Positions 23,041 through 64,000 of a stretch of 64,000 nt of DNA are shown here, one piece after another. Both the position numbers and the translations under genes were made by a program. Numbering within the stretch: position 1 is the first letter of the stretch; each line of letters opens with the position of its first letter. Source of the DNA: Polytrichum commune (taxonomy: Eukaryota; Streptophyta; Polytrichopsida; Polytrichales; Polytrichaceae); contig OX485803.1 of assembly GCA_950295325.1 (NCBI GenBank), forward strand, positions 62,881,554 through 62,945,553, written 5' to 3'. The notes below the pieces were generated by a model. It did not search any database. It was not told the origin of the DNA and saw only the letters and a program-made list of their open reading frames with translations.

Positions 23041-23049
23041 TGAGAGACT

Positions 23050-23517: not shown

Positions 23518-24094
23518 CCAAACCCTCATTTGTGTTGCACGCATGATTTCAAATATCAAATGGTCAACAAATTCTCATCTATGGATAAGGCCTGCCACAA
23601 ACCATAAGAAGTACGACGAGCTCAAGGTGGAAATTGACATGATAACCTCCGGCCGAAGAAGAATGTGAGAAAGGTTAGAGATTGGTGGCCCACGCTAAAA
23701 TCAACAAGTTACACATGAAGAACACAAAGGAAAGACTAAGAATGTGTCCTAGCGAGAAAGTCTCTGAATGAGATCTGCGGCGATCCCAACAACAAAGCGT
23801 TGCATGGTTACAGCGGCACTCCAAAGTGTTGCATGATACTCTTCTCGATTTCTGCCACTAGTTGCAGCCGCAAAAACAAAACTGAATAGAGTTAGACTGG
23901 ATGGGTTAGAGTTGGACTAAGATTCCAGCGTTTCGTGAGGAGACGACCGCTACAACTAGAGATCACCAAAGAGTTGGGCCCAAAGGAGAGAAGAAAGAAG
24001 ATTAGATCTAGACCTAGGAGATGAAGGAGAAAGAAGAACATCAACACCAACATGCATCATCAACACTAGGGTTTCACCCTTATTCATAACATGG

Positions 24095-25000
24095 GTGCTC
24101 ATAAGCACCATTGCATTATGTGCTTACACACACCACAATACTCATTCATCAATGCTAACACCCATAACCTATCCACCAAGATGCCACCCTCCAATGCCAC
24201 CCTCCAATGCCAAATCCCACAAGTTACCCACTAAGTTGTCATCTCTCAACCCCAACAAAACGTACAATATTGTCACCTCTCAACCTCAACAAAGTACACA
24301 CAACAATGCCACCCACCAATGCCAACCCACCAACTCAAATGCCACTCCTCGATACTAACCTATACAAAACATCCCTCAAGCTATCACCAAAAGACCCCCC
24401 CACGATCCAAAAGTACTCCACACGCCATATCATCGCCATCGCCACCCACACAACACAAAACCACACACACAAAGGTAAGCAAAACCACTTGCACCTACCA
24501 TCCAACAAAAACCCACACCAAAAAACATCAAAAATGCAACTACACACTATTTATAAACTTACCTCAAAAAATGCAATGTCGCCACTCCCTGCCTCTATGC
24601 GCGACCATATGCCAGCACCACCCACACCAGATCTCCATAAAAATACACACAAAACAACCAGAATACTGCCAACCCACCCTAAGACCAGAAAACGCACAAC
24701 CCAGATCCACACAACGCCAAAACCCCAGCCTTACCCAACAACAACCACGATGCCCCCAACAAAGAAAACTGGGCCTCAACCAGCTAACACCCCCGAAACG
24801 AGCAAACCACCACCCCACAAATCCAAACATTACAGATCACAACAAACCCCGCCATCAAACCGGCCAAACTAGCAAACACCGCCAACAACCCGCACCTTCG
24901 AAAGCCAAAAACCGGATCCCCACCTCAAGCTCTCACAACAAATCTACCTTCAAATACCCCCCACCTCACATCCCTCATCACTCAACTCTCCTTCTCTCCT
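24095..25000. repeat. A/C-rich low-complexity tract
   Basis: About 900 bp are dominated by CCA, ACA and CAAC words, giving long Thr/Pro/His-rich frames in more than one register. That is expected of compositional bias rather than of a gene. The adjoining 25070-25330 is purine-rich with GGGGCGGGGCC-type words. Confidence 0.7.
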
Positions 25001-25672
25001 CCTCACTCAAACATGGCATCCAGGTAGAGCAGAGGCGGAGCTGTAAACGAGTATGCAGATGGCCGCGAAGTACCAAGCGTTGATGGCGACGGAGGCGGGG
25101 CCGAGAACAGAGGAGGGGTGGCGAGTGGAGGACTAGCGGCAAACAACGGAGCCCTCGATGCCACCAGGGGCGGGGCCGTGAACAAGAGCATAGCGAGATG
25201 ACGGCAAGCATGCACAGAAAGCGGCAATGGCACCGAAGGCACCAAGACAACAAGCAGGGGCCGGGCCGGGAGTAGGGGCGGGGCCGAGAGCCGGCCTAGG
25301 AGGCGTAGAACCCTCCTAGGAGACTTTAGTGAGGATGATGAGGGGGGAGCATATGGCCCCCATGCAAGGCAACCCACACTTATGAAGGCCCCATACCATG
25401 AACTTGATATAGACATGCAACTCAAAGACGTCTCCCCCGAACATGGGGGGAGCTCCCTATAGCTCTCCATTTTAAATGATGAATTCATCGCCATTCCCAA
25501 TCAAGCCACCGCATCCCAACTAGACGCCATCAACCTAGTGTACATAACACCCACAACAATATCACACAAAAGCCCAAGGAAAGAGACCACAACCGACACC
25601 CATAGCGCTTAGAGGAGAAGAAATGAGAGGGGGACATATACGGCCACCTCCACCTCAAGCAAGTCTCATAAT

Positions 25673-26038
25673 TTGAAGACCAAAGAAACAATCATAAGCA
25701 TAGATATTGTCTCACAAATATGGCTAGGCTTCCTAATCTATAAAGCCGTTGCGCTACAAAAAGACAAAGATATCATACGCGAGCACCGCACTAATGAAGG
25801 CTTCGCAAAGATCAGGATCCTCTCGAGAGAAATCATAGATTTCAAGACACTCTGGAGAATATTCCCACGGGTACTACAACTATTGTACCCAAGTAAGAGA
25901 CCGGACGCGGTCCCCGACAACCATCTCCACTTCATACAAATCCCAAGGCAAGAAAATGTTGATCACACAACTGGACTATCCGAAGGATTCCACATTACCA
26001 TACACTTTGACTATGGCTTCAAGAGCATTAATAGGTAA
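25673..26038 (+). CDS. Hypothetical 121-codon ORF or exon
   Basis: The frame opens at an ATG-less position (TTG) and holds balanced, protein-like sequence: DFKTLWRIFPRVLQLLYP, PDNHLHFIQIPRQENVDHTTG, then a stop after a GGTAAG-like donor at 26033-26038. The last feature suggests an exon. No family is recognised and no partner exon was found. The gene-free 26040-26700 region that follows shows nothing else. Confidence 0.25.
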   Translation: MKTKETIISIDIVSQIWLGFLIYKAVALQKDKDIIREHRTNEGFAKIRILSREIIDFKTLWRIFPRVLQLLYPSKRPDAVPDNHLHFIQIPRQENVDHTTGLSEGFHITIHFDYGFKSINR

Positions 26039-36151: not shown

Positions 36152-36559
36152 TAGATGTGGATTTCCATCCATGAAAGCCCAATCTTAAGTTCATCATTGC
36201 ATTGCCGGAGCAACACTATAACAACCCGAATCATACTAAGCAACTATGTCCTCACGTTGGTCCAATGCCCATGAAGGCCGTGCCGTTCGGCCTCGGGTGG
36301 ATTCGGCCGGCTATGCCGCCTTATCCATATAAGCCTCTAGGACTTTAGGCAGGGTCCCTACCCCACCGTCAAGAAACCTTTTGTCTCTCTCTCAAGGGTT
36401 GGGGCCAAGTAGGCATTTTCCCTTAGCCGTTGGGGCTAAAAGCCCCCAACAGCTTTAGACCACCATAACTTCTACTTATGATCTTTGATGCTATCAAGCA
36501 ACCACTTTATCGACATGTATTCTTTGCGCAAATGTTTATGGACCCCTCCCTTGCCTCAT
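36152..36559. repeat. Dispersed repeat R1, middle segment
   Basis: It matches 59481-59885 (TCCATCCATGAAAG-CCAATC, AAGCCTCTAGGACTTTAGGC, AAGTAGGCATTTTCCCTTAG). It ends in TGCCTCAT (36552-36559), the 8-bp target of the hAT element. Confidence 0.9.
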
Positions 36560-36640
36560 CAGGGTTGTCTATTGTGTCGTGACGGAGGGTAATCCCGACA
36601 TAATGTCGTGCCGTCACGACATTATGCCGGATGATGTCTT
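36560..36640. promoter_or_regulatory. hAT left terminus with subterminal hairpin
   Basis: Inside the TIR, TGTCGTGACGG (36575-36585) pairs with CCGTCACGACA downstream (36611-36621), forming an 11-bp stem. The right end at 50230-50296 repeats ATTGTGTCGTGA-GGAGGG in direct orientation plus an imperfect inverse CATGACGTCGCGAT. Such arrays probably bind the transposase. Confidence 0.6.
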
Positions 36641-36779
36641 TATCCTACCGGACTTGAATTTTACCGAATTTTTTGTGTATTTACATTACCCCATTGCGGA
36701 CATGTAGGAGTTACGATGTCCACGTGTGATGACATGTCAGCAAAGTAGAGGTAAAGTGGGGAATAAAATTACTAGCGCC

Positions 36780-37050
36780 CGTCCGCCCTCCCGTCCCCCC
36801 CCCGTTCCCCGTACCCTAACCCCGCTCCCTTAGCCCATTAACATGTTCCCTAACCCGTTCCCTACGTTCCCTCCCGTCCGACCTTTTCCTGTCCTCCCTT
36901 TTCCCGTCCGACCCCCCCACCCGACCCTCCCTCCCACCCGACCCTACCCCCCTTCCGACCACCCTACCCGACCCTCCCTCCCCGTCCTCCCCCCCCCCCC
37001 CCCCCGTCCGACCCTCCCGTCCTTCCTTCCCCCCGTCCGTACCTCATGAT
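36780..37050. repeat. C-rich tract 1 (upstream of kinase)
   Basis: This nearly pure pyrimidine strand is made of CCCGTCCGACC, CCGTTCCC and CCCTACC words plus a 17-C run at 36989-37005. It ends just before the kinase TATA box. The opposite strand could form G-quadruplexes. Confidence 0.85.
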
Positions 37051-37066
37051 TGGGCTCCCCTCTCCC

Positions 37067-37074
37067 TATATAAA
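37067..37074 (+). promoter_or_regulatory. TATA box of kinase gene
   Basis: TATATAAA directly follows C-rich tract 1 and lies 212 bp before the ATG at 37286. A pyrimidine-rich likely start region follows. Confidence 0.7.
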
Positions 37075-37285
37075 CCCGGGGGGGCTTTACTTATAATCAC
37101 TTTCCTCTCTTCCCACCACTTAGGGACCCGAGACCTTGTTGCGTCCCAAGGGATAGCGGCACCGCGCGGGTCTTAGTGGGTTTGGGAGGTTAGGGCAAAT
37201 TGTGGGGTAATCCTCGCAATTTTTTTTCCATATTCACGCACTCGTTTTTACACTCACTCACTCATTCACGTGATTTTTTTTCTTG

Positions 37286-39202
37286 ATGGAGGGGGAGGCC
37301 ATTGCTCCTTTCCAAGACGAGGATTCAAGGCTGCACCGTGATTGGCTCCAAAGCAGGGCATCCGCGAATACTGGCGAAGGTACAGGAAGCGATCCCGGAA
37401 GTGGAAGTACTACAGCACGTAATCCACGTCCAGATCCTTTTCAGTTTGATGAGGAGTTCTTTGCTGTTGGTCATTCAGGAGGCAACCAACCACGGGGAAG
37501 CCGTGGAACACGTGGGAGTCGGGGAAATAGTGGACATAGAGGGAGAACAGGAAGGGGACCAAGCTCAGGCAGTTCCACAGGTATAAATGCACCCACTCGT
37601 TCGGAGAACGTGCCACCACAATCTCCGACACCGCGGACATCAAGACCGCATAGCCCTGCTCGAGATGTACCTCAGGGTTCGGAGCATGATGAAAGACGGG
37701 GATTGAAACGCTCAGCAGATTCGGGAGGGATGGAGGAGGGGTCCACGGCATCAGGTTCTCAATCAAAGAAAAGGAGACATAGAGGCAAACGTGATAAACA
37801 TATCGATGAGGCTCGAAACCATTGTAGGATATTGGTGTTGGAATGGTTTAGAAAGCACAACATGGTTTTTTTGGAAAAAAAATACCTCAATGATGGTACA
37901 AAGGGTTTAGAGTTGGTGAAGAACGAGTTGATTCTTCTTCTCACGGAAGGCATGGTTGGAGCTGAGTTTGAAGAAGCTAGGGGCATGAGCGATTGGGACA
38001 CATGGATTGAATCTCAAGCCAGGGAAGCAATCTACAATCCAACAATGACATATGATGTTGTGCATCCCGGTGAGGGAAGTAGTGGTGGCAGGAAGTCTGA
38101 GCTGTACGAGAAGCTAGAGAATTGGAGAAGAGGCGTAATAAGCGCAAAAGGAACATCCGCCGGCACCCTTCCCGTTTTCATTGACAGACAAATGGCAGAC
38201 AACATTGCCACTCAGGGCCGACGTGGTGTCATATGGTTGCCTAGAGATGTGGAGATCAAAGCCTTGGATAAGGAAATCTTCCAAGGGTCCTACGGAGTGG
38301 TGCGGAGGGTCACAATTCATGGAGCATCATTCATCCCTAGCTGGATAGAGTGGGCTGGGAAGACCATGAAGGCCACGAATAGTTTGGAGAATCGAAAGGA
38401 GCGTTCACTTGAAGCATTGGCATGTCCTGTAGATCATCCTGGGGTAATCAAGATACAGTACATCCATATGAAAACATACGAATCCTATTCATTGTGGTGG
38501 AATGGAGGCTCTTTGAAGCACATGAGGATCTATGACTACCAAGTTCCGGATGTTCACGAGAGCAGAATCCTTGAAGCACCAGGGCTAGATTTTGATTCAC
38601 AAAAACGCTTGGTTGTATATCGAAAGCATCGAGCTTATTTGGCATGGGCTCTAATGTGCATTGTGGATGTAGTGCACAAGCATGACGTGTTGCACAATGA
38701 CCTTAATCCCAACAATGTCATGTTGCATTTTCCACAAGACCGTGAGAACACGGTTTTCATTGGTGTGTGTGATTGGGGCATGGCATCATGGAGAGATGAG
38801 GACGCCCTCTCTAACTATGGAAAAGATTCAGTGGATGAGATGAACAAGCACAAAGCACAATACAATTGTGTTGGTCCTGAATTATTCCATGTACGAGGGC
38901 AGCGTGGAACATCGACCTTTCCAATGAGGATGGCTCGGAAACATAGGCACACATTTCTCTCGGAGTCCTTCTCAGTGGGTGCTTTGGCAAAGAAGATTTA
39001 TCACAAGGATTCGACTTCCCCCTTGTTTCAGCTAAATCGTGATCCAAATGGCTTGAAGATGCGGTTTGAGGTAGCATTGGATGCATTAACGAAGACCAAT
39101 CCAGCGGAAAGGTCAACCGTCACACACGAAGTGAACATTTTGAAGTCGCCTCCATACAACATGGTTAACCCGACAATGTGCTTCCGAGACACTGCAAAAT
39201 AG
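37286..39202 (+). CDS. Transposon-borne protein kinase-like protein, intact, single exon
   Basis: There are 638 residues from ATG 37286, the first ATG after the TATA box; the frame is open two bases earlier only through a TTG. Residues 1-170 are low-complexity Ser/Gly/Arg-rich and end in a basic cluster (SKKRRHRGKRDK) suited to nuclear import. Residues 175-310 form a separate helical region. The kinase domain starts about residue 328: glycine loop QGSYGVV, AGKTMK for the ATP lysine, catalytic loop HNDLNPNNVM (about 38692-38721) and metal site CDWG in place of DFG. The catalytic Asp and Asn are kept and DWG occurs in active kinases, so activity is possible, but the loop Lys is Asn. It is the only long cargo gene without a break. 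The substrate is unknown. A role helping transposition or tolerance by the host is speculation. Confidence 0.88.
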   Translation: MEGEAIAPFQDEDSRLHRDWLQSRASANTGEGTGSDPGSGSTTARNPRPDPFQFDEEFFAVGHSGGNQPRGSRGTRGSRGNSGHRGRTGRGPSSGSSTGINAPTRSENVPPQSPTPRTSRPHSPARDVPQGSEHDERRGLKRSADSGGMEEGSTASGSQSKKRRHRGKRDKHIDEARNHCRILVLEWFRKHNMVFLEKKYLNDGTKGLELVKNELILLLTEGMVGAEFEEARGMSDWDTWIESQAREAIYNPTMTYDVVHPGEGSSGGRKSELYEKLENWRRGVISAKGTSAGTLPVFIDRQMADNIATQGRRGVIWLPRDVEIKALDKEIFQGSYGVVRRVTIHGASFIPSWIEWAGKTMKATNSLENRKERSLEALACPVDHPGVIKIQYIHMKTYESYSLWWNGGSLKHMRIYDYQVPDVHESRILEAPGLDFDSQKRLVVYRKHRAYLAWALMCIVDVVHKHDVLHNDLNPNNVMLHFPQDRENTVFIGVCDWGMASWRDEDALSNYGKDSVDEMNKHKAQYNCVGPELFHVRGQRGTSTFPMRMARKHRHTFLSESFSVGALAKKIYHKDSTSPLFQLNRDPNGLKMRFEVALDALTKTNPAERSTVTHEVNILKSPPYNMVNPTMCFRDTAK

Positions 39203-40300
39203 ATTTTTTTTGTTTTTTTTGCATCAATTTTAAATCATACCAATTTTGTAACTGTTGGAGATGTAAATAAAGCCATCAATTTTGCATACAAAACTTGTAT
39301 ATTATATGAGGTTTATGGATCTTAGTGCAATGTTTGTACTCCATGAAGCTTTTGCTTCATAATCGAGAAGAAATCTATGGGAGGCTAACCAAGGTTCTCG
39401 CCTCTCGTGAGGCCACGTGTTAACTGTCAACAAAATGGTACTTCCTTCTTTGTAAATTTGACTCTATAAACGTTAACGGATGAAATTCAACCATAATATG
39501 GATGATAAAAACTACACATCCAGTTACATTGATTCATATTCACTCGTGATTTGTAAACTTGATATTAAATAAAATTTTGATTGGGTGTACAATTTTATGA
39601 ATGGTATTCTCTCACAAGGACTATTCACAATTGCTTATATTTATAATTATATAATTCACAATCACTATTTTTTGGAAGTTTGGACATAGTGTCGGTTTTT
39701 TGGCTCTCAAAAATTCATATGAAGTCCAAAAAATGAGTTCTTGGTATCCATGGATAGGTAATGAAGTCCTCTACATGAATATGCAATAACAGTCCTCTAC
39801 ATAATAGTCCCCCCATCCACTCACCCCCCCGCTCCCTACCCCCCGTCTGCCCCCGTTCCCTCCCCGCTCCCACCCGTTCCCTAGCGTTCCCCCCCCATAG
39901 CGTTCTATGAGATACTTTTAGAAGTCTCAAGTCTTTCTATATATAGATACTTTAAGAAGTCTCTAATATTTCTATATATAAACTTAATTCTCCTTTCTAT
40001 ATGCTTGAATTACTTTTTTATTTCTTCACATGGATAAGAATCATCCAACCCTCGTCCTTCGACATCGCATTCATCTCATCATAGCACATATATGATTATG
40101 AATTGTCAAAATAACTTAAGTTAACTAGATGTTTTGCAATCACATTTTATGGAAAAAAAACTATAGTTTAATTATATACATATAACTATAGTTAACATCC
40201 ACATAATAAAGTACACTAAAATAACAATAATAAACTAAGGGTGAACATAAAGTGGTTAAAAAAAATTTCTCTTGGAACTGAGAAGTTGATGCATAGTTTC
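39203..40300. other. Gene-free spacer with C-rich tract 2
   Basis: The 3' flank of the kinase is AT-rich. At 39805-39900 there is a second pyrimidine tract (CCCCCGTCTGCCCCCG, CCGTTCCC), followed by TATATATAG at about 39938. That order matches the kinase and transposase promoters, but no ORF follows on the plus strand. AACTATAGTTAAC-type palindromes appear at 40130-40200. Confidence 0.6.
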
Positions 40301-40301
40301 A

Positions 40302-40541
40302 TTTTGCTTTGTGTTTGTTTATCTCAACAGAAACTGTTCATCTCAACAAGAGAAAATGTAGAGATCTAATACCACACCCAAAATCTCTTTCAAATATACA
40401 ACATAATTGTATTTTGCTTTGTGCTTGTTCATCTCAATATTTTCTCTTGTTGAGATGAACAGTTTCTGTTGAGATGAACAAGCACAAAGCAAAATACAAC
40501 TGTGTTGTATATTTGAAAGAGATTTTGGGTGTGGTATTAGA
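40302..40541. repeat. Nested large palindrome
   Basis: TTTTGCTTTGTG...CAACAAGAGAAAAT at 40302-40356 is inverted at about 40438-40495. TAATACCACACCCAAAATCT...TACAACA at 40368-40404 is inverted at 40505-40541. The arms interleave, so alternative hairpins are possible. Confidence 0.85.
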
Positions 40542-40875
40542 AAAGCATATGCCTTTAAGGGTTAAGTAGGTAAGGACTAGACCATGTTCGCTAAGGTCTC
40601 CCTCAATATTTTCGATGGAATTTGGGGCCAAGGGGAAACTTTAAGGGTTGTTGTTGATAGGTGTTACGATGTACAAAAGTCATAGAAATATGCAGTATTA
40701 ATCGGTTGGTAAATTAAAAAAATAAAAAAATAAAAATCATAGAAGTGGTACAACATATTATACAAGTCATAACTTTATTATTGCGACAACGGTACAAATG
40801 CCCTTTATTAATCATATACATGAACAAACCATGCAAACTCTAATATTCTACTTTATTCCGTCAACTTGACTTCCG

Positions 40876-41436
40876 TCATGCCAACCTCGTAGATGCTACT
40901 GGCTTCCGGTGAGGGTCCATTTTTGGAAGAGGATTCGGCCGAAGTAAATCAACATAGCTAATCGTTCGGTTTTTCATCCGTTTCTTTAACGGTAGCCGAT
41001 GAGGCGATAATCCTCTCATCTTCTTACGAATAGGTAAAGTCTTTGAAGATTCACCCGCTACCTTGACTATTTCAATGTCGATTGAAGTCTCCTCCACATC
41101 CACATCCCCGGGCTTCTCCAAAATATCCGCACACAAATCAATCAGATCATTTAGATCTCCACCCACGCATTGTGTGTTGTCATTCTCCACCGCATCGATC
41201 TCAAAGTTGTCCGCATGTCGTCGTTGGTCCTCCTCCGTCCTCATCCTCCAAGCTTGTGTAGATTGTGAAAAGGGAGTCATGACAAACTCATCACGAAATC
41301 GATCCCTAGCACTTCTCTCATCTCTCTCACGTTCGGGTGTTGGATTGAATGGAATACGGGGATCGTCTAAATTGTATATCTCTTTATCACATTCTAAATC
41401 CTCAAACATGACTCTCTCATTTCCCATCCTATCCAT
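40876..41436 (-). CDS. Hypothetical 186-residue acidic/basic protein, hAT cargo
   Basis: ATG at 41436, stop at 40876-40878, intact. The N-terminal third is very charged (RERDERSARDRFRDEF). The centre is acidic (NDLIDLCADILEKPGDVDVEET). The C-terminus is basic (IRKKMRGLSPHRLPLKKRMKNR), which could be a nuclear localisation or DNA-binding tail. A minus-strand TATATAAG at 41485-41478 sits about 45 bp upstream of the start, close for a plant promoter. No family is recognised. The opposite-strand frame at 41063-41473 is a shadow. Confidence 0.6.
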   Translation of the reverse strand: MDRMGNERVMFEDLECDKEIYNLDDPRIPFNPTPERERDERSARDRFRDEFVMTPFSQSTQAWRMRTEEDQRRHADNFEIDAVENDNTQCVGGDLNDLIDLCADILEKPGDVDVEETSIDIEIVKVAGESSKTLPIRKKMRGLSPHRLPLKKRMKNRTISYVDLLRPNPLPKMDPHRKPVASTRLA

Positions 41437-41701
41437 GATATTCTACCTTCGTTATATGTATGAGTCTCAATGATCTACTTATATATTGAGCTCTAAGGAC
41501 TTGATGACGATGACCAATAATTGATGTAATCCAATATGTAGAGGATCCAATTCACGTTGGTAAGATAAAGTCAACGCAATCGGAATAAAAATAAAGTTGG
41601 TTAGGTAAAAAATGTACACTTTTGAAAAAGTCTTCCGACATCCGCATTGGAAACCTCTTTGATACCTCTTTGAACTTTCCATATTTGATTAGTTATCCGC
41701 T

Positions 41702-42180
41702 CATTCAACAAATTACTAATTTGTGCTTCAACCTTAGTGGTTCATATGGTTTCACAACCCATGTCGCGCATCCGAATGCACTTTCATTCAACAAATCATT
41801 AATTTGTGTTTCAACCTTAGTGGTTTATATGGTTTGACAACCCATGTCGCGCATCCGAATGTACTTTCATTCAACAAATCACTAATTTGTGCTTCAACCT
41901 TAGTGGTTCATATGGTTTTACAACCAATGTCGCGCATCCGAATGCACTTTCATTCAACAAATCACTAATTTGTGCTTCAACCTTAGTGGTTCATATGGTT
42001 TCACACCAATGTCGCGCATCCGAATGCACTTTCATTCAACAAATCACTAATTTGTACTTCAACCTTAGTGGTTCATATGGTTTCACACCAATGTCGTGCA
42101 TCCGAATGCACTTTCATTCAACAAATCACTAATTTGTGCTTCAACCTTAGTGGTTCATATGGTTTCACAACCAATGTATT
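41702..42180. repeat. 83-bp minisatellite, six units
   Basis: Units start at 41702, 41785, 41868, 41951, 42033 and 42115, each beginning CATTCAACAAATCACTAATT and holding CAACCTTAGTGGTTCATATGG and GTCGCGCATCCGAATG. Two units are 82 bp through loss of one A. The last is cut short. The array lies between the 186-codon ORF and the transposase. Confidence 0.95.
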
Positions 42181-42272
42181 TTCAGATACAACAACTCAAT
42201 AGATACATGTTACTTATCTTCTTGGTAGTAGTACAATGCTTTTGCTTGAGTATCTGAGATCGAAGCTAGGAT

Positions 42273-42599
42273 ATGCATACATGGTGTAAAAATAAGATAA
42301 AATTGGAGCTTTTGGATATGGTATGTCTAATGTTTTGTGTAGTGTTGCCGCATCATCTTCATGTTTACCCTCTAATTCTAAAATGTTCATATGTTTCTTC
42401 AAATGATGAAGATGGTAGCCCAATCCATTGCATCCACTTCAAGCCCACAAATAAAGACCCGCATAAGAGCATCAAGGGGCTTCAAGTTCACCCTATTGCA
42501 CAAGTGCCATCAAGTAGCAATGCTAGGAGGGTACCCTTTGACTATTCGGAAAAATGCAACTACCTTTTAGACATCATCAACTATTCCGGGGCTTTATAG
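42273..42599 (+). CDS. Possible 108-codon ORF, unknown
   Basis: ATG 42273 to stop at 42597-42599. The second half reads like protein (NDEDGSPIHCIHFKPTNKDPHKSIKG; FDYSEKCNYLLDIINYSG), but there is no recognised motif and no promoter match. It may be an exon relic. The sequence on to 43000 is AT-rich and otherwise empty. Confidence 0.25.
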   Translation: MHTWCKNKIKLELLDMVCLMFCVVLPHHLHVYPLILKCSYVSSNDEDGSPIHCIHFKPTNKDPHKSIKGLQVHPIAQVPSSSNARRVPFDYSEKCNYLLDIINYSGAL

Positions 42600-42999
42600 C
42601 TATTGAGATTTGTTTAGACCCTAATTTAGCCTTGGACGGGTTCAAATCCACTTTGGACGGATTCTAAATACAACATTAACAAAATCCCCCCCAAAAAAGG
42701 TACAAATATCAATTACATTATGTCATATAGAGCATGTGAATATAAGCATAATGCAATCAATCCACTAATATCCAATCAAAATATCAATCTTGAAGTGCTA
42801 GTGAATAAGAATTAGTATATTTAATCATGTTGAACATTTAAAAAACAAACGAGATACTTATCCTTAATAATATGACTTAACACCAACATAGATCCTATGT
42901 TTATTTTTTAGAATCTACGTTTATATTCTAATTATATCTGACATAGATTATATTTAATTAAATAATCATCCATTAAATTAATTAATTAATTAAACTAAC

Positions 43000-43122
43000 C
43001 TCCCCCCCCCCCGTCCGACCCCCCTACCCGTTCCCATTCCCGCCCCGTCCGACCTCGTTCCCCCCCGTCCGCCCCCGTTCCCACTCTAGATTCGTTAACC
43101 TCCTCCATGAGTACTATAAATT
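43000..43122 (+). promoter_or_regulatory. C-rich tract 3 and TATA box of the hAT transposase
   Basis: Pyrimidine tract 43000-43085 with CCCGTCCGACC and CCGTTCCC words, then TATAAATT at 43115-43122. A leader of about 230 bp follows, with an intron acceptor TTTGCAG at 43338, so the first exon is probably non-coding. Confidence 0.65.
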
Positions 43123-43351
43123 AAGGGTTCAAGGTGCCATTTTTGCCTCCACTGTCATAGTGTGTCTCAAGACTTTTGATTCTCCTCTAAGGAGTGAGGA
43201 TTGAATGTGTGAGACCCGATTGCCGAGGATACTTTGTCCATTCTGGTCACTGTGAATTAGGGATGCCCTTGTGGCACTCTTGAACAGGACCTAGTATGTG
43301 ATCAAAGCTACTTGCTCTACATTGTTTGTATTTGCAGGTTTTGTTGAAGTC

Positions 43352-46300
43352 ATGCCACGCCGAAATGATGCATGGGATCATTGGTATGAGGATAAGGGGC
43401 TGGTTCCCGGTAAATCACAAAAGCAGGTTAAATGTAGGTTTTGCTCGTTCATCATATCTTACCGAGGAAATAGAATGTTGGCCCACCTTGGTTATAGACC
43501 TCCTTTAGGGGGTGCTTGTGATGTTTCCTCATGTAGGATGGTACCCCCGCATATTAGGGTCTTGTTTGAAAATTGCGGAGGCAATGTGCCTTTACATGTA
43601 GGCATTGTAAATGAGGACTCTCCGATGCGAGATGATGTACCTCTAGAGCCTATTATAGCGGACTCTGTAGTTAGTGAAACAGAGCCTTTGCTTATGTCCC
43701 AATCCACTCAGCATTCTGATCTTGTGATATATAGCACACCTCCTCGTGAACTACATCAACTCAACATACCGGAGGGGTTCAATGTGTCAACAAAACAGCT
43801 CCTCGATAGAGCATGGGCAATGGCTTTTTATGAAGCTAACATTCTTTTCAACATTGTGAGACATCCAGCATTTGTTCATGCTGTGCGTGAAATTGCCCGT
43901 CATCGAATGCCAGCCTACACACCACCATCGTACAATGCCATCCGTACGAAGTTGTTAACTGATAAAAAAGTTAACCTAGATAGGGAAGTGAAGGAGAAGC
44001 TGGGGAATTCCGTTGACAAATACGGCGTTACAATATGTTGTGATGGATGGGACAACGTGCAAAACAGACCTCTCCTAAACGTTCTTCAATGTGGCACAAA
44101 GGGAGACGTCTTCTTGGGTACCATTGATACCACGGGGAATCACAAGGATCATGTCTACTTTGCTGCTCAAATTCAACCATTTGTGGAAAATGTTGGTCGA
44201 CATAATGTGGTCCAAGTTTGCACTGACAATGCCCCGGTTATGGCCTCCGCTTGCCGCGACTTGATTTAAGCAAATCCCGATCTATATGTTCAAGGATGTG
44301 CTGCGCATTGCCTAAATCTCCTCTTAGAAGATTGGGGGAAGGAGGAATGGGTGAAAAAGTTGGTAAAAAAAGGGCGCCATATTTGTGTTTTTATAAAAAA
44401 ACCATCATGCTCCTCAAGCTATATTCCGGAGGTTGTCACCAAATCTCTCACTCCGCCTACCTGTAGAGACCCGTTTTGCAACAAGCTTCATCATGATAGA
44501 ACGTCTTCTTCAAGTACGCAATGCTTTGGAAAGAATGGTGGTTGATGATGATTGGTCTACTCTAATGCGTGATTTGAGGAGGAGATCAGGCACCGCTTGG
44601 ACGAAGGGCTTTGCAGTGCGACGCTTTATACGTTCCGATGGATTCTGAAACACGTGCGAAAATTTCTTGTATATGGTGATCCCGGTTGTTAAAGCTCTTC
44701 GTGTATTTGATGGCAAGGCGCCTGCAATGGGATTGGCTTGGAAGGTCATGCATGATTTACAAACCCATATTCGTGGATTCAGTAAACCTCCATTTCGCTT
44801 AAGCCCTAAGCTTGCTGCAAATGCTATGGTAACATTTGAAAATAGATGGAGGTTGATGTTGAATGATCTTCATTGGGCTGGAGCGATGTTAAATCCGCTT
44901 CTACGTGGTTGGGCCCCACTTCATGAGCATGAGAATTCGAGGACAATCCTAAATCGAGTTATTCGCAGACTTACTCCAGATCAAGACACTTATATCCAAA
45001 TCCTCCACCAGTACCAAGATTTCCTTGAAAATCGAGGGCCTTTTGCTGATTCTACAGACCCGAACGTGCATGCCGCACCTCTCCATGAATGGTGGGATGC
45101 AATGGGAGGTGGAGCTAAGGCCCTCCAAACAATAGCGAGACGTATCTTTCCACAAGTATGTTCCGCGTCCGCATGTGAGCGCAATTGGAGCATGTATTCA
45201 TATGTTTACAACAAGAATCGCAATCGCTTGAAGCATAGTCGTGCTGAGGACCTCGTCTACATATATACCAATAGTAGGCTCATTCGACATTGGAGGGGCC
45301 CGAGACCTGCACAATGGTACGAAGTGAATGAAGTCCATTCTGACGATGACCTTGACGAAGAAGATGACAACGAAGTTGACGTGGATCCAAATGATAGGGC
45401 CGGAAATGATGACGACAACAATGTTGATGACATTGACGATGATTTGGATGATCTCGATTCAAAGAAATCTGATTCTGATGATGAAGATGAGGGTTATAAT
45501 AGTAATGATAGAAACCTTGGGGTGTTTGATTTTGATGAAGCGGATGTCCCCCATAATAACGACGGAATGCATGACGATCATGAGGGGTCTATTGGAGGTC
45601 CACCTTTTGAAACCCTCCATACTGGACAAGGTTGTCGCCTTGACCATAATGTTGCTATGGGGGCAACAGAGAATGTAGGAATTGAAGTAGATTCCTTGCA
45701 ACCTCACAGCGATTCCCTTTCTTTTGGTGGAGGTGACAATGTACTACCTGCAAATGAGCCAACGCATGTTCAACAGGATCCACTTCCAGCCAGAGTACAT
45801 TCCGAATCCATGGACGCCTCCCTCATATCCAACCATCATACCGAAGTTCAAACGTCCAATGTTGCTGAAATGCCTATAACCCGATGTCATGCTCTTCAAG
45901 GAATTGCATCCACCTCTACTGTGCAAGTGCATGCACAACGTCAACATCGTCCTCTCACTCGAAGTATTGCCAATACTTCTAGATTGGGTGTTTCACTAGC
46001 AACTACTGTGGGTGCTACTTTGGTTGCTATACACAATGTTTCAAGTCGTGGTAGGGGTGGAGGGCGCCATAGAACTACGAGAGGTGTCAAACGTACTAGG
46101 AAGAGGTATCAAGGAAGATTGCTTCCGTTTACTGCTGAAGACTACAATGAAGATGAGGGTAGATCACATCTAGATGAAAATGACATACAGGATGCAGAAG
46201 GCTCCCGGCCCACCAAGAAGATAATTATCTCACAACGTAACCGAGAGTTGCGTCTTCGGAGCGTGATTCCCCAAACAGACGATGATTTCAGCACAGACGA

Positions 46301-46361
46301 GTCTGAAGAGGACCCAAGATGTGTCGAAGCAAATGATCCCACAGTACGGATTCGAACGTAA
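43352..46361 (+). pseudogene. hAT transposase with BED-type finger, three lesions
   Basis: The start is ATG 43352 just after the acceptor at 43338. N-terminal CRFC...H (43435-43490) is BED-finger-like. The RNase H-fold blocks follow: CDGWDNVQNR and CTDNAP, which carry catalytic Asp residues in hAT enzymes. A TAA at 44267-44269 interrupts, yet the same frame reads on through GCAAHCLNLLLEDWG. The register changes at a 7-A run (44395-44401) into the block around TRFATSFIMIERLLQVR. A TGA at 44646-44648 is followed by the rest of the enzyme, with the C-terminal dimerisation region (ACERNWSMYSYVYNKNRNRL, about 45172-45231). A long Asp-rich tail and a basic RGRGGG segment end at 46361. Full-length protein cannot be made from this copy. 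Confidence 0.88.
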
Positions 46362-46369
46362 TTGTTTTG

Positions 46370-47010
46370 CAAAAATGTGGTCTTTCGGTGTTCCCACGTA
46401 CTCCCGTAATTTATTACTTACGTCAAAATTGATACAACCTTAGGGCCTTCGGTAAGACATTTAGACCACAAAGCGAATGCTACCTTCGCAGTTGTATCGT
46501 TTATTATGATGTATTATTCTTACGGTGAATAGAGTTTTGTTTTTATTTATTGAGCTTCTTGAAGCAAATGTTTTTATAAATATTGCAAGCCATCTATTGT
46601 TCGATTGTACATGCTTCGTTGGTGGCTTCCTATTTTTTGGAATATTTCTATGTGTTTTACATAATTATATCTTTATGTGTTATTCAATATTGGCTATGTA
46701 GTTATTAGTTAATAGTACTCTTTGTGAGACTATCATATGAATGACTATTATTCAAGTAAGTTTTTAAAAATTTCAAAAAACATTAAAACATATGGCATCC
46801 ATATGATATCTTTTACACGTTCTAATCACTTTGAAATGAAAAATTGTCAGTAAATCCTCTTCATATTACATATTTTTTGAACATGAAATATGTTCATTGT
46901 GTCCAAAATTTTCCTCCCTTCCTGTACAACTTTCTAAACAATCTACAAAAATTCCTAATCCGAATCTGAATCGAGGTCTATAGCCACTGAACTAGCTGGA
47001 TGAAGATGAA
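46370..47010. other. Intergenic, no gene
   Basis: AT-rich spacer between the convergent transposase and RING genes, probably holding both 3' ends. No distinct terminator or repeat was noticed. Confidence 0.5.
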
Positions 47011-47014
47011 GTCC

Positions 47015-49278
47015 TCATCGTGCTCGTGATAATTCACCAGCTTTCATGCTTCGCGCTAATCCACGGGTGAGATAAAGACGACTTCCGGGAGACAATGGAA
47101 CGACATTACGTGGTCTGGGCCCACCATTTAGCCATTTCAAAACCGCATCTCCCGTAACTCTATGCAAGAGCGCATCAATTGCACTCAATTGCAGCCTATT
47201 CTGGTGGTACCCCTCCTCTAATTGCAATTCAAGTCTCGGATCCCTAACATAGGCATGTCATCTACATCTTGTTCCAAATCATGCTCCGATACTGATTCGA
47301 GACCTGTTGCATTGTACCAAGGAGGGTGCTTGCCGCTCTTTAATTGTCTACTTGTTGTATCCCAATGCCAACCAAGAGTTTGGTAAAAAAATCTTTTCAA
47401 GCCATGCTCGGGGGGCTTGTTGGGATACAACTCGTCTGCAACATATAAAATTTGACGTACACTCCGTGTCCATGATCCATTCTTATTCTCGTTCTATAGC
47501 TCAACCTTGGCACAATTGTATAACCAACTCCACTCAACACACTGCCCATCAAACTCTTGGAGTTCGAAAGAAAAGTCCCATGGCTTTAACACCCAGTCGT
47601 TACGCATGTAATCCCGAAGGCCAAATTGGAGGTACAAACGAGGATGAAAGGGTGATCTACAATGAGGACATTGGCGGTTCTTGATCATATTGCCTATTAG
47701 ACATTGTGGATGGAATTGGGCCCCACATGATCCAACTTTAAAGCATCCCTCTGGGCCAAATGGACATTGGCAAATCGCACACACGGATCCGTTAAAAATC
47801 ATTGGATGCGGATTTGGCCATAACTTCTCACCAATCATGCGGACAGGATATTCATGCACTTGTTGCATATCCCAATGGTAATTTTCATCTAGCACTTGCT
47901 TCCAATCGATGCTCCCGCTTGGCAATGTCCAATTACACTCATCCCACCAACTATGGTACATCTGCTCATTTTCTGGCCACGAAGTGAGCATCATGTTCCG
48001 CATTCTCTGATTGCGGTTCCATTCTTTCTGGATGCTCTCAAACTCAGCTTCAAATTGCCAGGCCTTTGTCATAGCAAACAATGTGCCTGTTCTCATATTT
48101 TTGCGCTTCACAATCCCATCCAAGAGAAATTTTTTTAGCTTGCCATTCTGCTCCTCCAGTAGACCAAGAATATCAAGGTCAATCTTGGCTTTGTAATCAA
48201 CAACAACTTCATTGACCACTTGAAGTTGTTGATGCATGTCAACCACCTCTTTCTGCAAAGCCTCCATCTTTGATTGCATTACTTGATTCATCGTACATAC
48301 TTCCAAAGTTTGTGACTTTGCAATCCTGGCTTCTTCTAAAGCTGTGTCCCTCTCTACTTGCAAAGACTGAAAATTACTGTTAGTTGTTGTCATTGGTGCA
48401 CTGCTTGAACTGCCAACCCCCCCATTGTAAGTGTTGCAACTTGATTTTTAAAATCGAAAATCCTTGCTTTGTACTCACGAATTTTCTCAGCATGTTGCTT
48501 ACGCAATTCCTCCATTTTGCTCTCCAATGTGTCCCCTCCAAGTTCACCAAGGTTTACCTCGTTATCCACCTCGTTGATCAAATTGTTGACCTCAACTTCT
48601 ACAATGTTTTCTTGGTTTACGGTATCCTCCATGCCGTCCTCCATATTTGCAATGATCTCCCCACTTACTGTCTCAATGTCATTGTCTGCTCGACAAGAAT
48701 GACGTGGTTTTTTTGGTTCCCGATCATCTGGAACTGGGGTCCTAGGATCATCTATTAGTCTGGAATTCTCCATGAACCATTCCGGAACGGGAATGTATGG
48801 AATATCTGGAATTGTGCACTTAGTGAATGCAATTCCAATACCTCCAAATTTCTTCTCATTCAGAGCACCCAAACTCGACCAATCCACTCTAACTCGCAAC
48901 ACGTGCTCCGCATACATCATACATGCCACTGACTTCGGAATTACGCCCTTACGCCATCTTTCCAAATTGGAGATATTTCTAAGGATTGTTAAAAATTTTC
49001 ATTTTGTTCCACATCTTGAAGTTGGTTATAATTCGCACTGATGGACCTGCAATGTATCTCGTCACAAGGTCTTGGCCACAAACGATCAAAGTGAGGGAAG
49101 CCCACATATTGCATTGCAATATTCGCAGTCCACGGCTGTGGTACCCTCTCCCAACCTGTCCTCGCTTTTTGGTGTGGTCATCATAAATATCCCACTCCAA
49201 CTCTGCGAACTTGCGTTGATATTTTTTGGCCTCCCTTGATCTTCCACTTGCCATGTCTATAGATCCTCCACTTGCCAT
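47015..49278 (-). pseudogene. RING-finger and coiled-coil protein gene, hAT cargo, broken
   Basis: The start is the ATG at 49278, after a minus-strand TATATAAG at 49626-49619. Segment 1 (to 48979) is a globular WASLTLIVCGQDLVTRY-type domain. The frame shifts by one near 48990 into segment 2 (48965-48390), acidic then coiled coil (ESKMEELRKQHAEKIREYKA). It shifts again at a 7-G run (48417-48423) into segment 3 (48393-47494), with more coiled coil and a RING-like finger CAIC...CGAQFHPQC...CPHC (about 47795-47660). The first His of the usual C-x-H is Ala. The frame continues past a TAG at 47496-47494 to 47218 and then into 47227-47015. RING proteins are usually ubiquitin ligases, but the missing ligand and the breaks make activity here unlikely. 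Confidence 0.7.
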
Positions 49279-49499
49279 ATCCACCCCAATTGTGGTTTCT
49301 AAGTCTAGTGTATAATTCTAAAGTTTTAAAATACTACTTGCACTTCATAATAGTGCTACAAAAACATCCAAGCATACACTTCAAAATAATGTTGCCGTGG
49401 AATAAGTTCAAAAATGTTGTTAAAAATTAAAGTCAAAAAACAGCCACCAAAAACACACCCACAAAACACGTGAGTATTTTCCCAATAAAGATAAAAGGG

Positions 49500-50040
49500 C
49501 CCCCAAATAGGGACCCCACACTCCCCCGAGTGCCCCGCGTGCCCCACGCTCTCTTTAAGAGGAGGGCCGACCGGGCTCCCACAAGGAGTAGAATGAGGTA
49601 GATAAGTGGTCCCCCCCACTTATATACCCCGTCCTCCCTCCCGTTCCCCTCCCCCATTCCCCTAATCCCGTTCCCATCCATCCCGTCCTATCCAAACCTC
49701 CTAAACCCGCTCCCATCCCCCGCTCCCCACGTTCCCACACGCTCCCCGCGTTCCCCCCCGTCCGCCCCCCCCCCCCGTTCCCACTTACCTTCTCCCCGTT
49801 CCCCGTACCCTAACCCCGTACCTTCCCGTCCTCCCTTCCCGTCCTCCCTCCCTGTCCGACCTTCCCTCCCCGACCCTACCCCGACCCTACCCTACCGTCC
49901 CTCCCTACCTTCCCACCCCACCCTATCCTCCCCCCCCCCCCCCCCCCCGCCCGACCCTCACCCCCGTCCGACCCCACGTTCCCCCGCGTTCCCACACGTC
50001 CGCCCGCGCTCCCCACCCGTTCCCCCCGTCCGACCTACAC
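49500..50040. repeat. C-rich tract 4 (upstream of RING gene)
   Basis: This is the longest pyrimidine tract, with a 19-C run at 49930-49948 and the same CCGTCCGACC and CCGTTCCC words as tracts 1-3. The RING-gene TATA (49619-49626, minus) sits within its left part. Confidence 0.85.
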
Positions 50041-50296
50041 CCTCCTCAGTAATATTTTATTACTTTGATTTTAACAAAATGGTAAACACAATGGCAAAAT
50101 GGTTTACATGCCAAGGGAAATATGCACATCCACGTCGGCATTTTTTGCCACATAGGACGCCACCTTGGCAAGAAGGTAAGTATTTTACCCACCCTACTAG
50201 GTTGACCCTAGTTTGACCCTACGAGGAGCCTATTGTGTCGTGATGGAGGGGTCCGACCCGACACGACGCGTCATGACGTCGCGATAGACAACCCTG

Positions 50297-50672
50297 TGCC
50301 TCATTCAGGCAACTATTGAGAAAGTTATGCGTGTTGAAACCTTGGCAGTCCCGAGTGCCACTCCCAGGTCATTGTTGTCCCAGGTTGTTGTCTCTAGGCA
50401 ACGCCCCACTCAAATTGCCATATCTCCTAGCTCACACCTCCGGTTGAGGTGTTCTTGAGCATTTTACAATCCGCACACCATAAGCTAGTCATAGTTGATG
50501 GCCTTACCTTCATGACTCCTAGACTCTGTGGGTGAGAGGCATTCCTAACGCCCGGGGCCCTCACACACACTAGGATCATTTGGGCCCTCTCACCAATGGC
50601 GCCACATGTCCTGGGTGTCACTCCGGGTTCCCATTGTGTTCATGGTGTTTCGGGCACTCCTCATGACGAGGT
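50297..50672. repeat. Dispersed repeat R1, right segment
   Basis: It begins with the second TGCCTCAT and matches 59887-60268 (CTTGGCAGTCCC, GCGCCCCACTCAAATTG-type words, CCAATGGCGCCACA, GGCACTCCTCATG). Sequence to about 51960 may belong to the same element but has no partner in the window. Confidence 0.9.
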
Positions 50673-55399: not shown

Positions 55400-55913
55400 C
55401 CTTGTTAAGTGACATGCAAGGAATCGAAAGCTTTGCTGAGCTCAAATTTCAGACACATGACGATGACCAGCTTGCATGGCCGATGATTTCTCATCACCGG
55501 GCTAATCAGACGATGAGGTGCGAAGGACGGGCCGCTGATGAATCGGGAGCCTTAGAAGTCGCCTTCAATCGGAGGGAGGAATTGAAGAGGGACGGGGACA
55601 GCGATGAGCGCATGCCCCACTGCAAGGGCGAAACGTGGTGCAGTTAAAAGGCGGCCATGTGGCACTCTTGGGCTTCATATGAAGGCTGGAAAGCCATCTC
55701 AACATGGGGAGCAGCCACTGGCTACTCGATCGCCTCTAGGCTCATGTGGATCCCCCTTTATTGTTCCTTTAAACTTGCCACTGGCACAACGCACTTCCAA
55801 CACAGACAATTCCCTTCTCCTGCTCTCCGCCTCGTACACCTACAGTTTACATTTCACACCATATTTGTGCTTCTCGATTTCAACACTTGATTCTCCCTTT
55901 CATTCTATTCAAA
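55400..55913 (+). promoter_or_regulatory. Duplicated upstream region and 5' UTR of chloroplast-protein gene A
   Basis: The matching region precedes gene B at 63300-63815. Shared blocks include GCTTGCATGGCCGAT, ATCGGAGGGAGGAATTG, ATGCCCCACTGCAAGGGCGA, TTTATTGTTCCTTTAAA (TATA-like, about 70 bp before the pyrimidine-rich 5' UTR) and CTCCGCCTCGTACACCTACA. The long frame at 55195-55647 is not kept in the copy, so the region is read as regulatory. Confidence 0.65.
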
Positions 55914-57233
55914 ATGGCAGCAGTCACATCTGTAGTTTCTGGGTCCGTTGCCGCAGCACCCGTGAGTGCCACCAGGTTATCATCGTCCGCAGCATCGGCT
56001 GCTGCCCCTGCGCAGGTTGCCCCTGTCCGCAATGTAAATTTGAGCGGCAACCGTGTTGTGGTTGTTAATGCCACCTACTCTGAGGTATGTGTCGATGAAT
56101 TGCAGGTGTTGGCGACCAATTTCTTAAAGCCTCTTAAAATTACTCGACGTGTTATGTGAAAGTACTGATGCCCTGCAAATTGATGTGTTTCAGGAGAACA
56201 AGAGCGTGACGAAGCAGGTGCTCACTTCGATTGTGGCTACCGGTGTGGCAATCAGCTTGGCGGGATCGGCTTTCGCAGCTGCAAGCCCAGGAATCGATGG
56301 CGCTGAGCGCACTGCCCGCAAAGCCGACGAGCTGCTCCAGGGAGCTGATGCCCTCATCAAGAACGACTCCCCCCAGCGCTTTGGCCCCGACAGAGGCCTT
56401 GAGGCAGCCAAGGAGTATGTCAACCGCTTCTCCCAAAAGTAAGTTAACTATGGATCTGTAAAATATTATCACAATGTTTCCTGGACAATTTACTTCTTGC
56501 ATTATGCCATCTACTCAAGGAGCCGCGCAGTGGTGTGAAATTGGTCACTTGAGAATGTGTTGGCAACTACCAAATATTAAAAGGTTGGGTATTTCTTCTA
56601 CAACCGAAAATTATAATTTTTCCGTGAAAACATATGCACAGTAGTCGAAGATTCACTAGTGTTGCAAAATTCCCTGAGAATTATTTAATTGCAGGGCCGG
56701 AAGCGGTGCTATCCCAACGCTCCAGGATGCAAGCAGTGCTCAGGTTGCAGGCGCCAGGGACAAGGTTGCTTCGAACTTGCAGAAAACTCAGCGTAGAGTG
56801 GACGGCATTTGGGGTCAATCAGCGGTATGTTCATGGCCTTATCCTTAATTCTCATATTATATCAACAGAAATTGCACTCATACACCATTCCCTTCGTCGG
56901 TCAGGCTTTTTAGTAATATGTTTGCGCTTTTGACGTTGAATCTCTATGATTGTATTGTACGTGCAGCGCATGGCCAATGATCTCATAGCTTCTGCTCAAG
57001 GTAAGGTTGACGATGTGGGCAAGGGCGCCAAGAAGGCCTTTGGTCAAGCCGCCAAGAACAGCATCAAGAGCAATGTGAGCAACGTAGCTGCAGATGTGAA
57101 GGGCAAGGTGGACGAGGTCACCCTTGGTCCAGCCAAGGGAGGTTTCTTCGGCAAGATCAAGCAGCAAGGGAAGGCCATCCAGGGCGCTGTTGCCAGCAAG
57201 GGCAACGAATTGAAGAATGCTTTGCCCAAGTAA
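55914..57233 (+). CDS. Chloroplast-targeted, probably thylakoid-lumen, Ala/Lys-rich protein (copy A)
   Basis: Exons are 55914-56084, 56194-56438, 56695-56824 and 56967-57233. All introns are GT-AG with GTATGT, GTAAGT and GTATGT donors, giving 270 residues in one continuous frame. Residues 1-50 are Ser/Ala/Val-rich without acids, a plastid transit peptide. A second hydrophobic stretch (VLTSIVATGVAISLAGSAFA, about 66-85) ends in an A-x-A-type cleavage site, as in lumen-targeting signals. The mature part is charged and helical with repeated KGK/GK-VD segments (GKVDDVGKGAKKAFGQ; DVKGKVDEVTLGPAKGG), rather like LEA-type amphipathic helices. I do not recognise the family. It is not PsbO, PsbP or PsbQ by any motif I can see. 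It is the first of a tandem pair; copy B starts 7.9 kb downstream. Confidence 0.85.
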
Positions 57234-59287: not shown

Positions 59288-60268
59288 GTCGCAACCCTTG
59301 CTAGCTCTCCTTAACTGTCTTGGCCATTTCTCAATTCTAGCAAGAGTCACGAGCGCTAACCCCTTGCATTCCACCCATGCAAATGGTTAGCTCTCAATAT
59401 CTTGGACCTTCAAGCTCATAGGTGGGTGACCAACCTTCCTACATATGCATTCGAACTCTCCCCTTAATAAGTAGCTAATGGTTAGATGTGGACTTCCATC
59501 CATGAAAGTCCAATCTTTAGTTGATCATCGCATTGCCGAAGTAACACTACAACCACCCAAAGCATATTTGGCAACTATGCCCCCACGTTAGGCCAACGCC
59601 CATGAAGGCTGTACCTTTTGCCTCGGGAGGGTTTGGCCGACCAAGCAGCCTCACCCATACAAGCCTCTAGGACTTTAGGCAGAGAACTTACCCCACCGTC
59701 AAGGAATCTTTTGTCTCTCTCCTAAGAGTTGGGGCCAAGTAGGCATTTTCCCTTAGCCATTGGGGTTGAAAGCCACCAAAAGCTTCAGACCTCCATAACT
59801 TCATTGTATGATCTCTAGTGCCATCAAGCAACCACTCCATCGACATACACTCTTTGCGTAGATGCTAATAGACCCCTCACTTGTCCCATTTTGGCAAGTA
59901 TTGAGGAAGTTATAGCTATTCTAACCTTGGCAGTCCCGGGCGCCACTCCCAGGTCAGTGATGTCCCAGGCCGCTGTCCTTAGGCAGCGCCCCACTCAAAT
60001 TGTCATATCTCCTAACTCACACCTCCGATTAAGGTGTTCTTGAGCATTCTAGAATCCAGACGCCATAAGCTACCCAATACTCATGGCTTTACCCTTGTGA
60101 CTCCTAGTTTCCATGGGTGGGAGGCGTTCATGATGCCCAGGGCCCTCACGCACACTTGGATCACTTGGGCCCTCTCACCAATGGCGCCACAAGTCCCGGG
60201 TGTCACTCCGAGGTCCCCCTTGTGCCCATGGTGTTTCAGGCACTCCTCATGGAGAGGTGCGTGACACC
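59288..60268. repeat. Dispersed repeat R1, uninterrupted copy
   Basis: It is collinear with 26718-26914, 36143-36559 and 50297-50672. It contains the two empty target regions: TAGCTAATGGTTAGATG near 59483-59499 and TTGTCCCATTTTGGCAAG near 59881-59898. It has no coding sequence, and its full extent and class are unknown. Confidence 0.85.
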
Positions 60269-63020: not shown

Positions 63021-63815
63021 CATGGAATTCACCTGATCAATTATGAGACTTGAAATCACAATCGGTGCGATTCATAATTGCTAACTGAATGAGACTGATC
63101 CCTTTCCAAACCAGTAACAGCCCACCAAATTGTCTGTGGAGTTCGAAGAGCCCGCATCCCTTAGCATCTTCGCCGGCTCCACAAGTAAGCTTATGAGAGA
63201 ACCATCGAAAATTGTGTCCTCTGGTAAGAGTCTTACTGTACGTAATCATGTGAAAACTTGAGTGCGATGCCAGCGGCGTGAACACCTAATCTCAGGTAAA
63301 GCAATGAAGCAAGTCAAATGCCTTGCTTTGCTGGTGCTCAACTTCCGGACACATGATCATGAGCGGCTTGCATGGCCGATTTCTCTCACATCAGAAGGCT
63401 ACTACGTAGTGACTAGGGCAGGGGCGCTAAATGAATCTGGAGCCTTAGAAGTGACCTGCGATCGGAGGGAGGAATTGGAAGAGGGAGGCTGAGTAGAGCG
63501 AGAGAGATCGAACGCATGCCCCACTGCAAGGGCGAAACGTGGTGCACGCAGGACGCGGCCAAGTGTCGCTCTTGAGCTTCTGAAGGCTGGAAAGTCATCT
63601 CAACGTGGGAAGCAGCCACTGGCTGCTCGATCGCCTCTGGGCTCATGCACATTCTGCTTTATTGTTCCTTTAAAGGTGCCACTTGCACAGCACACTCTCA
63701 ACACAGACAAATTCCCTTCTCCTGCTCTCCGCCTCGTACACCTACAGTTCATATTTTACACCATATTCCTGCAACTCGATTTCAACACTTGATTCTCCCT
63801 TACATTCTATTCAGA

Positions 63816-63986: not shown

Positions 63987-64000
63987 GTATGTGTCGATGA

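Follow-up and report, generated by a model that had tools for sequence, protein, structure and literature searches.

A multigene hAT transposon family in Polytrichum commune with kinase-like, RING-like and small-protein genes

Plant DNA transposons usually consist of a transposase gene, at times accompanied by captured gene fragments, and one or two genes are usual for autonomous plant hAT elements. The hAT-type element at positions 36560-50296 (13,737 bp) of a 64,000-nucleotide stretch of Polytrichum commune DNA (assembly GCA_950295325.1, contig OX485803.1; "the window" hereafter means this whole stretch) raises the question of why such a transposon should enclose a kinase-like gene, a RING-like gene and a third, small gene, and whose interest these would serve. 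A preliminary description, made from the letters of the window, had proposed a real multigene cargo element. We find a four-gene hAT family that is present in high copy number, with one pair of ends, a separate target-site duplication (TSD) for each copy and selection on the kinase-like gene; the window holds a non-autonomous copy of this family, whose cargo probably serves the element itself. We refer to the genes as T (transposase), K (kinase-like), R (RING-like) and P (a 186-amino-acid protein), and to the two ends as E1 and E2. The features are as follows, with the strand where there is one and the basis of each call in brackets.

36552-36559: left TSD, TGCCTCAT (identical to 50297-50304)
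36560-36572, plus strand: terminal inverted repeat at end E1; E1-type end CAGGGTTGTCTATTGTGTCGTGA (genome pattern matches)
36780-37045: C-rich stretch with GTCCGAC motifs, E1 subterminal region and K promoter (motif scan)
37067-37072, plus strand: TATA-like site of K (-219 from the ATG)
37286-39202, plus strand: K, kinase-like, 638 amino acids, open (open reading frame, Pfam match, copy comparison)
40876-41436, minus strand: P, 186 amino acids, open (open reading frame, copy comparison)
41480-41485, minus strand: TATA-like site of P (-49 from the ATG)
41701-42177: 83-bp tandem array of 5.8 units, upstream of P (tandem-repeat scan)
43000-43085: C-rich stretch with GTCCGAC motifs, T promoter (motif scan)
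43115-43120, plus strand: TATA-like site of T (-237)
43352-46361, plus strand: T, hAT transposase with DUF659, hAT dimerisation and weak BED matches, broken (open reading frames, Pfam)
About 46958-49275, minus strand: R, RING-H2-like, frame-broken in the window (open reading frames, Pfam, copy comparison)
49621-49626, minus strand: TATA-like site of R (-351)
49640-50065: C-rich stretch with GTCCGAC motifs, R promoter and E2 subterminal region (motif scan)
50284-50296, minus strand: terminal inverted repeat at end E2; E2-type end CAGGGTTGTCTATCGCGACGTCATGACG (genome pattern matches)
50297-50304: right TSD, TGCCTCAT (identical to the left TSD)
59476-60261, plus strand: unoccupied paralogous copy of the target (83% over 787 bp)

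The boundaries are as exact as first described. The 13-bp terminal inverted repeats (TIRs), CAGGGTTGTCTAT, form a perfect inverted pair with no further exact match anywhere in the window, and the 8-bp TSD is identical on the two sides. When 600 bp of flank from each side were joined, they aligned to 59476-60261 at the identity listed above and with no gap at the junction, so that the target sits in repeated sequence; the unoccupied relative of the target that had been placed at 59.9 kb is indeed there, and it is a paralogous repeat copy, not an orthologous empty site. Both ends recur in the 407.8-Mb assembly: with up to two mismatches allowed, a 23-base E1 pattern gave 586 matches and a 28-base E2 pattern gave 434, and the reversed control gave 0 for each.

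The hAT transposase reported inside the element is supported by domain matches above the Pfam cut-offs. T of the window is broken by stops and frame changes and falls in three open reading frames, one of which matches DUF659 (75.9 bits) and another the hAT dimerisation domain (37.4 bits); in a copy designated B3, the corresponding scores are 120.4 bits for DUF659 (cut-off 34.7) and 39.8 bits for Dimer_Tnp_hAT (cut-off 21.4). The dimerisation domain, the 8-bp TSD and the short TIRs place the element in the hAT superfamily, and a comparison of T with solved structures gave no match. Because T and R are both broken in the window, where K and P are open, the window copy is not autonomous. An open transposase does exist elsewhere, as T runs without a stop over 1060-1065 codons in copies B1, B2, B3 and C1, and in copy B3 all four frames are stop-free and in a single piece each (K 635, P 186, T 1061 and R 777 codons). 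Among B1, B2 and B3, T and K have a mean synonymous divergence (dS) of 0.005 and 0.014, respectively.

A genome-wide search found the element to be far from a single copy. With a 114-amino-acid piece of T as query, all 138 candidates were scored and 126 rows matched, of which 105 are loci with at least 87% identity, 2 are second pieces and 19 do not exceed 41%. For K, a 101-amino-acid query was scored against 150 out of 177 candidates, and the 146 matching rows contain 110 loci with at least 85% identity, a lower bound, besides 4 second pieces and 32 rows that do not exceed 43%; 41 of the 69 K matches scored in this respect lack an internal stop. R and P had 128 and 155 genome matches, respectively. 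Gene loci with neighbours within 12 kb were then grouped into clusters, for which second pieces and the low-identity rows of T and K were left out (leaving 105 of 126 rows for T and 110 of 146 for K), as were second pieces of R (101 of 128 rows used, one of them a 39% match) and, for P, the relatives at 46-51% identity, some small pieces and other rows (106 of 155 used). This yielded 145 clusters genome-wide, 67 of which contain T, K, R and P, and at least one cargo gene accompanies T in 95 of the 104 T-bearing clusters. The expectation of a shared gene order is borne out as far as the gene set is concerned, which recurs, but there are three orders rather than one. Read from E1, and with arrowheads for direction, these are T> <R <P <K (order B, 34 clusters), T> <R <P K> (order C, 22 clusters) and K> <P T> <R (orders A and D, 8 clusters); together they account for 64 of the 67 four-gene clusters, the other 3 being mixed, and the three arrangements are spread over contigs C1 to C7.

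The anatomy of individual copies leads to the same picture. Our sample comprised 11 copies, the window and ten others, and nine of these are complete with two ends and a TSD (an exact one in eight, and one with a single mismatch in A2), with lengths from 13,737 to 18,404 bp and, as the preliminary description had asked of a real cargo element, a different TSD in every case. Copy C2 has both ends and no TSD, copy A4 has a single end and no K match in the stretch examined, and copy A3 has a 1113-bp copy nested inside K. For the pairing of ends within 30 kb, we used the exact ones, 100 of the 586 E1 ends and 46 of the 434 E2 ends; 36 of these E1 ends pair with an exact E2 end and 64 are unpaired. 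Nineteen of the paired elements are short (740-2726 bp) and have no gene match, and 17 are long. All but one of the long elements carry genes, K, P and R in 16 of 16 and T in 14 of 16, so the kinase-like and RING-like genes do occur in other copies with the same TIRs. The remaining long pairing, of 19.7 kb, has no gene match, encloses a short element and is probably false. The central claim of the preliminary description, a real multigene cargo element, therefore passed the test set for it, which asked for many copies bearing these genes between the same TIRs; its interpretation as a whole, which included a possible action of the cargo on host signalling or protein turnover, is partly supported.

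What do the cargo genes encode? Eukaryotic protein kinases are marked by a glycine loop and by HxD, DxG and PE motifs, and in K the glycine loop, HND, DWG and PE are invariant in all six aligned open copies. K of the window matches Pfam Pkinase with 25.7 bits (E-value 9e-6), and a further Pfam scan gave 27.0 bits (E-value 3.7e-6), the gathering score of this curated family being 31.7. R is open over 777 amino acids in copy B3, shows the Cys/His pattern of a RING by eye, and matches zf-RING_2 with 24.7 bits (cut-off 27.3, E-value 3e-5) and the RING of RNF38 with an E-value of 8.6e-5. This corrects the earlier kinase-plus-RING assignment, as both matches fall short of the family cut-offs. A comparison of K with phage records gave no match, and none of 84 pattern matches in viral contigs was confirmed, which is a weak test because both patterns are N-terminal. 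The third cargo gene is present as P, which is open, adjoins a repeat array and has relatives in an unrelated repeat element.

Evidence for function comes from the divergence of the lineages. Pairwise comparisons between lineages (NG86, group means) put the ratio of nonsynonymous to synonymous substitution rates (dN/dS, or omega) at 0.49-0.60 in K, 0.51-0.67 in T, 0.55-0.66 in R and 0.62-1.22 in P. A fixed-difference test, restricted to codons fixed within A and within B/C and hence less affected by the noise of decay, gave 36 synonymous and 63 nonsynonymous differences for K, an omega of 0.48 (0.32-0.76; p 0.001), with 0.34 for the kinase part; for T, omega was 0.44 (0.28-0.70; p 0.0005). With A compared to B alone, omega was 0.41 for K, 0.45 for T, 0.58 for R (p 0.004) and 1.75, not below 1, for P. 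These codon comparisons indicate purifying selection on K and T while the lineages diverged, and weaker, less certain selection on R. The K, T and R trees each group A with D with a support of 1.000, and in the P tree the A + D split has a support of 0.576. Together, the selection on K and the congruent gene trees favor a function for the cargo.

The cargo genes were said to have their own TATA boxes, and we find a TATA-like site ahead of all three and of T as well: at -213 to -233 for K (10 of 10 copies scanned), at -237 for T (10 of 11, with D1 at -340), at -349 to -445 for R (10 of 10) and at -49 or -57 for P (8 of 8). RTCCGnn motifs are dense at both ends and at the K, T and R promoters. 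Which form is commonest depends on the subfamily: for A1-A3 it is RTCCGAC, for the B and C copies GTCCGC with T, C or A as the next base, and for the E1/K region of D1 ATCCGGC, with other D1 places mixed; T coding regions contain 6-7 RTCCG matches per 3 kb (RTCCGAC 0, RTCCGCN 4-5). In A, the E1 region doubles as the promoter of K, and the E2 region as that of R; in B and C, it is T whose promoter coincides with the E1 region.

Upstream of P, an array with units of ~81-84 bp (164 bp in C2) was seen in all eight copies concerned (A1-A4, B1, C2, C3 and D1). We compared two other places with P relatives, L028 and L029, together with their left flanks, L030 and L031, and found that L028/L030 and L029/L031 share ~7.2 kb at 97% identity. 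This second element has ~139-bp repeats at the left, where its end lies in the repeat array, then a large protein, and a P relative near the right end; a third place with such a relative is L037. Pfam found no transposase in the large protein; by eye, the second element may be MULE/SWIM-like. Its P is 45-49% identical to the P described here, with a ratio of nonsynonymous to synonymous differences (pN/pS) of 0.62 and the conserved blocks TPFSQSTQAW and RGLSPHR-PLK-RM in common. As judged from this identity, P or its ancestor has been held by two different elements. An AlphaFold2 model of P (8 sequences) had a predicted local distance difference test (pLDDT) score of 50, which is low confidence, and was not used. 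We also note that P relatives at 46-51% identity crowd contig C4, which makes up ~14% of the assembly and has 15 of the 26 among the matches listed.

The recurrence of the extra genes together in dozens of copies suggests that they help the element itself, and a regulatory set that serves the element would be the best reading of these sequences. The RTCCGnn arrays, which occur both at the ends and at the promoters of T, K and R, are probably recognised by the transposase or by some other protein of the element, in which case a single site would both mark the ends and drive the genes. P probably acts via the adjoining ~83-bp array in the manner of transposon-encoded anti-silencing proteins, a role that we infer by analogy. 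The transposase, or else a silencing factor of the host, is the probable target that the kinase and the RING protein would modify or remove. The short gene-less copies retain the ends and would probably be mobilised in trans. Combined into one scheme, these steps would describe a self-regulating hAT with a subfamily-variable array, an exchangeable anti-silencing P, and kinase- and E3-like proteins that tune the transposase or remove a silencer, a combination that we put forward tentatively and regard as rather doubtful in its full form.

Several observations weigh against an element-serving cargo. The Pkinase and RING matches are both under the Pfam gathering scores, AlphaFold2 modelling of K (6 copies) reached a mean pLDDT of 30 and is uninformative on a kinase fold, and P has no Pfam match up to an E-value of 1, hence neither of the VANC domains, DUF1985 and DUF287, named in PMC5735166. 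In the fixed-difference test between A and B/C, R is borderline (omega 0.66, 0.44-1.02; p 0.054), and P, with an omega of 1.41 from about nine changes, is uninformative and shows no purifying selection; between B and C, T is the sole significant gene (omega 0.26; p 0.0005), with 0.64 for K (p 0.13), 0.58 for R (p 0.3) and 1.03 for P. The cargo could stay open for a time without any function if it hitch-hiked in a few successful master copies. Incomplete clusters number 78 of 145 (42 with two or three gene kinds and 36 with one), and some cluster entries are local duplicates with identical scores (contig C1, 21.87-21.97 Mb). There are also exceptions among the motifs: in D1, the upstream region of T has 1 match and that of P has 14, which is probably due to a ~3.8-kb insertion that separates T from its array, and copy C1 has one match within 1.2 kb upstream of K. 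Finally, the end and promoter regions partly overlap, so that the motif counts there are not independent.

Some of these points would be expected if an ancestral hAT had taken up the genes by chance, in the manner of Pack-type elements, and the cargo did not serve it. Gene uptake by plant transposons is documented (PMC13317346), and the P omega that is not below 1, the stops in R in 10 of the 11 compared copies (at least one in each) and the absence of at least one gene from more than half of the clusters all fit such capture. However, these are whole genes with recurring TATA-like sites, not fragments, and the same four are found in three arrangements; the omega of the kinase part stands beside that of T on the same branch, the gene trees are congruent, and none of the 36 paired elements is a short one with T alone. 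We therefore consider chance capture unlikely, if still worth serious consideration. A benefit to the host or its gametophytes, or a bias in transmission, would place selection on the plant rather than the element and could also account for the selection on K, kinases and E3 ligases being common host regulators, but the genes lie in dispersed copies tied to one transposon, K, R and T have one tree in common, and among the other kinase matches listed (43% identity or less) internal stops occur in 21 of 32 rows, some of which may be introns; we regard this as improbable. Least probable of all, to the point of being barely credible, is an artefact in which separate nested transposons formed one composite that was then duplicated. 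Nested insertions do occur, as in K of A3, and some copies look like local duplicates, yet a single TIR pair with differing TSDs encloses the genes in nine copies, which already contradicts such an artefact, and the three arrangements across contigs C1 to C7 also speak against it.

The weaker kinase matches were considered as older relatives of the same element and rejected: at L035 and L036, neither a match to P, R or T nor an open reading frame of at least 170 amino acids is present. At L037, a weak kinase match lies near the P relative, probably in the flank of the P-bearing element. The kinase relatives at L035, L036 and elsewhere, none of which exceeds 43% identity to K, are dispersed and are possibly relics of another kinase-bearing repeat. 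Elsewhere, an imperfect palindrome of ~250 bp lies between K and P (40292-40541), is also found in copy A4, and is perhaps a small foldback element. The region 23001-26000 of the window is strand-biased, with a GC skew of about -0.3 and an AT skew of 0.32-0.38 (an A/C-rich strand), and has no tandem array at a score of 150; a pair of ~680-bp repeats, 85% identical, occupies 55430-56098 and 63325-64000 and extends to the window end. The light-harvesting family has 58 matches in the assembly, including fourteen gene matches with equal scores within ~95 kb (G000, contig C5, 1751760-1846160).

If the cargo does serve the element, the family would show that a hAT transposon can evolve its own set of regulators, here a kinase-like protein, a RING-like protein and a small one, and keep them through several lineages and rearrangements. 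With 67 natural clusters of four genes alongside many copies that have none, this single genome provides a test bed suited to cargo function, array-motif change and escape from silencing, and the sharing of P by two unrelated elements would hint at a counter-silencing part that can be exchanged. No earlier description of such an element appeared in the titles and openings of abstracts that we found, a coverage outside which most subscription papers fall.

To place the element among known systems, we compared it with autonomous plant hAT elements and with two kinds of gene-bearing transposon. It resembles Ac-like elements in its 8-bp TSD, short TIRs, DUF659 and hAT dimerisation domains and motif-rich ends, and the Ac transposase binds sites near the ends of Ac; the element described here differs in its length (13.7-18.4 kb in the nine TSD-bearing copies), its four genes and its three gene orders. 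Binding of a hAT transposase near the element ends is also described for Herves (PMC3143072). The combination of an accessory gene with tandem repeats in one element, and the joint change of motif-bearing repeats among related elements, recall the VANDAL non-TIR MULEs with VANC (PMC5735166, PMC13317346), where, according to the former, VANC targets often form tandem repeats. The present element has a hAT transposase and TIRs, however, and P has no Pfam match, so the resemblance is one of layout, not homology. In bearing non-transposase genes, it is also similar to the products of Pack-MULE-type gene capture (PMC13317346), but it differs from them in that its genes are whole and have TATA-like sites, that they form a set found in 67 clusters, and that at least K is under selection.

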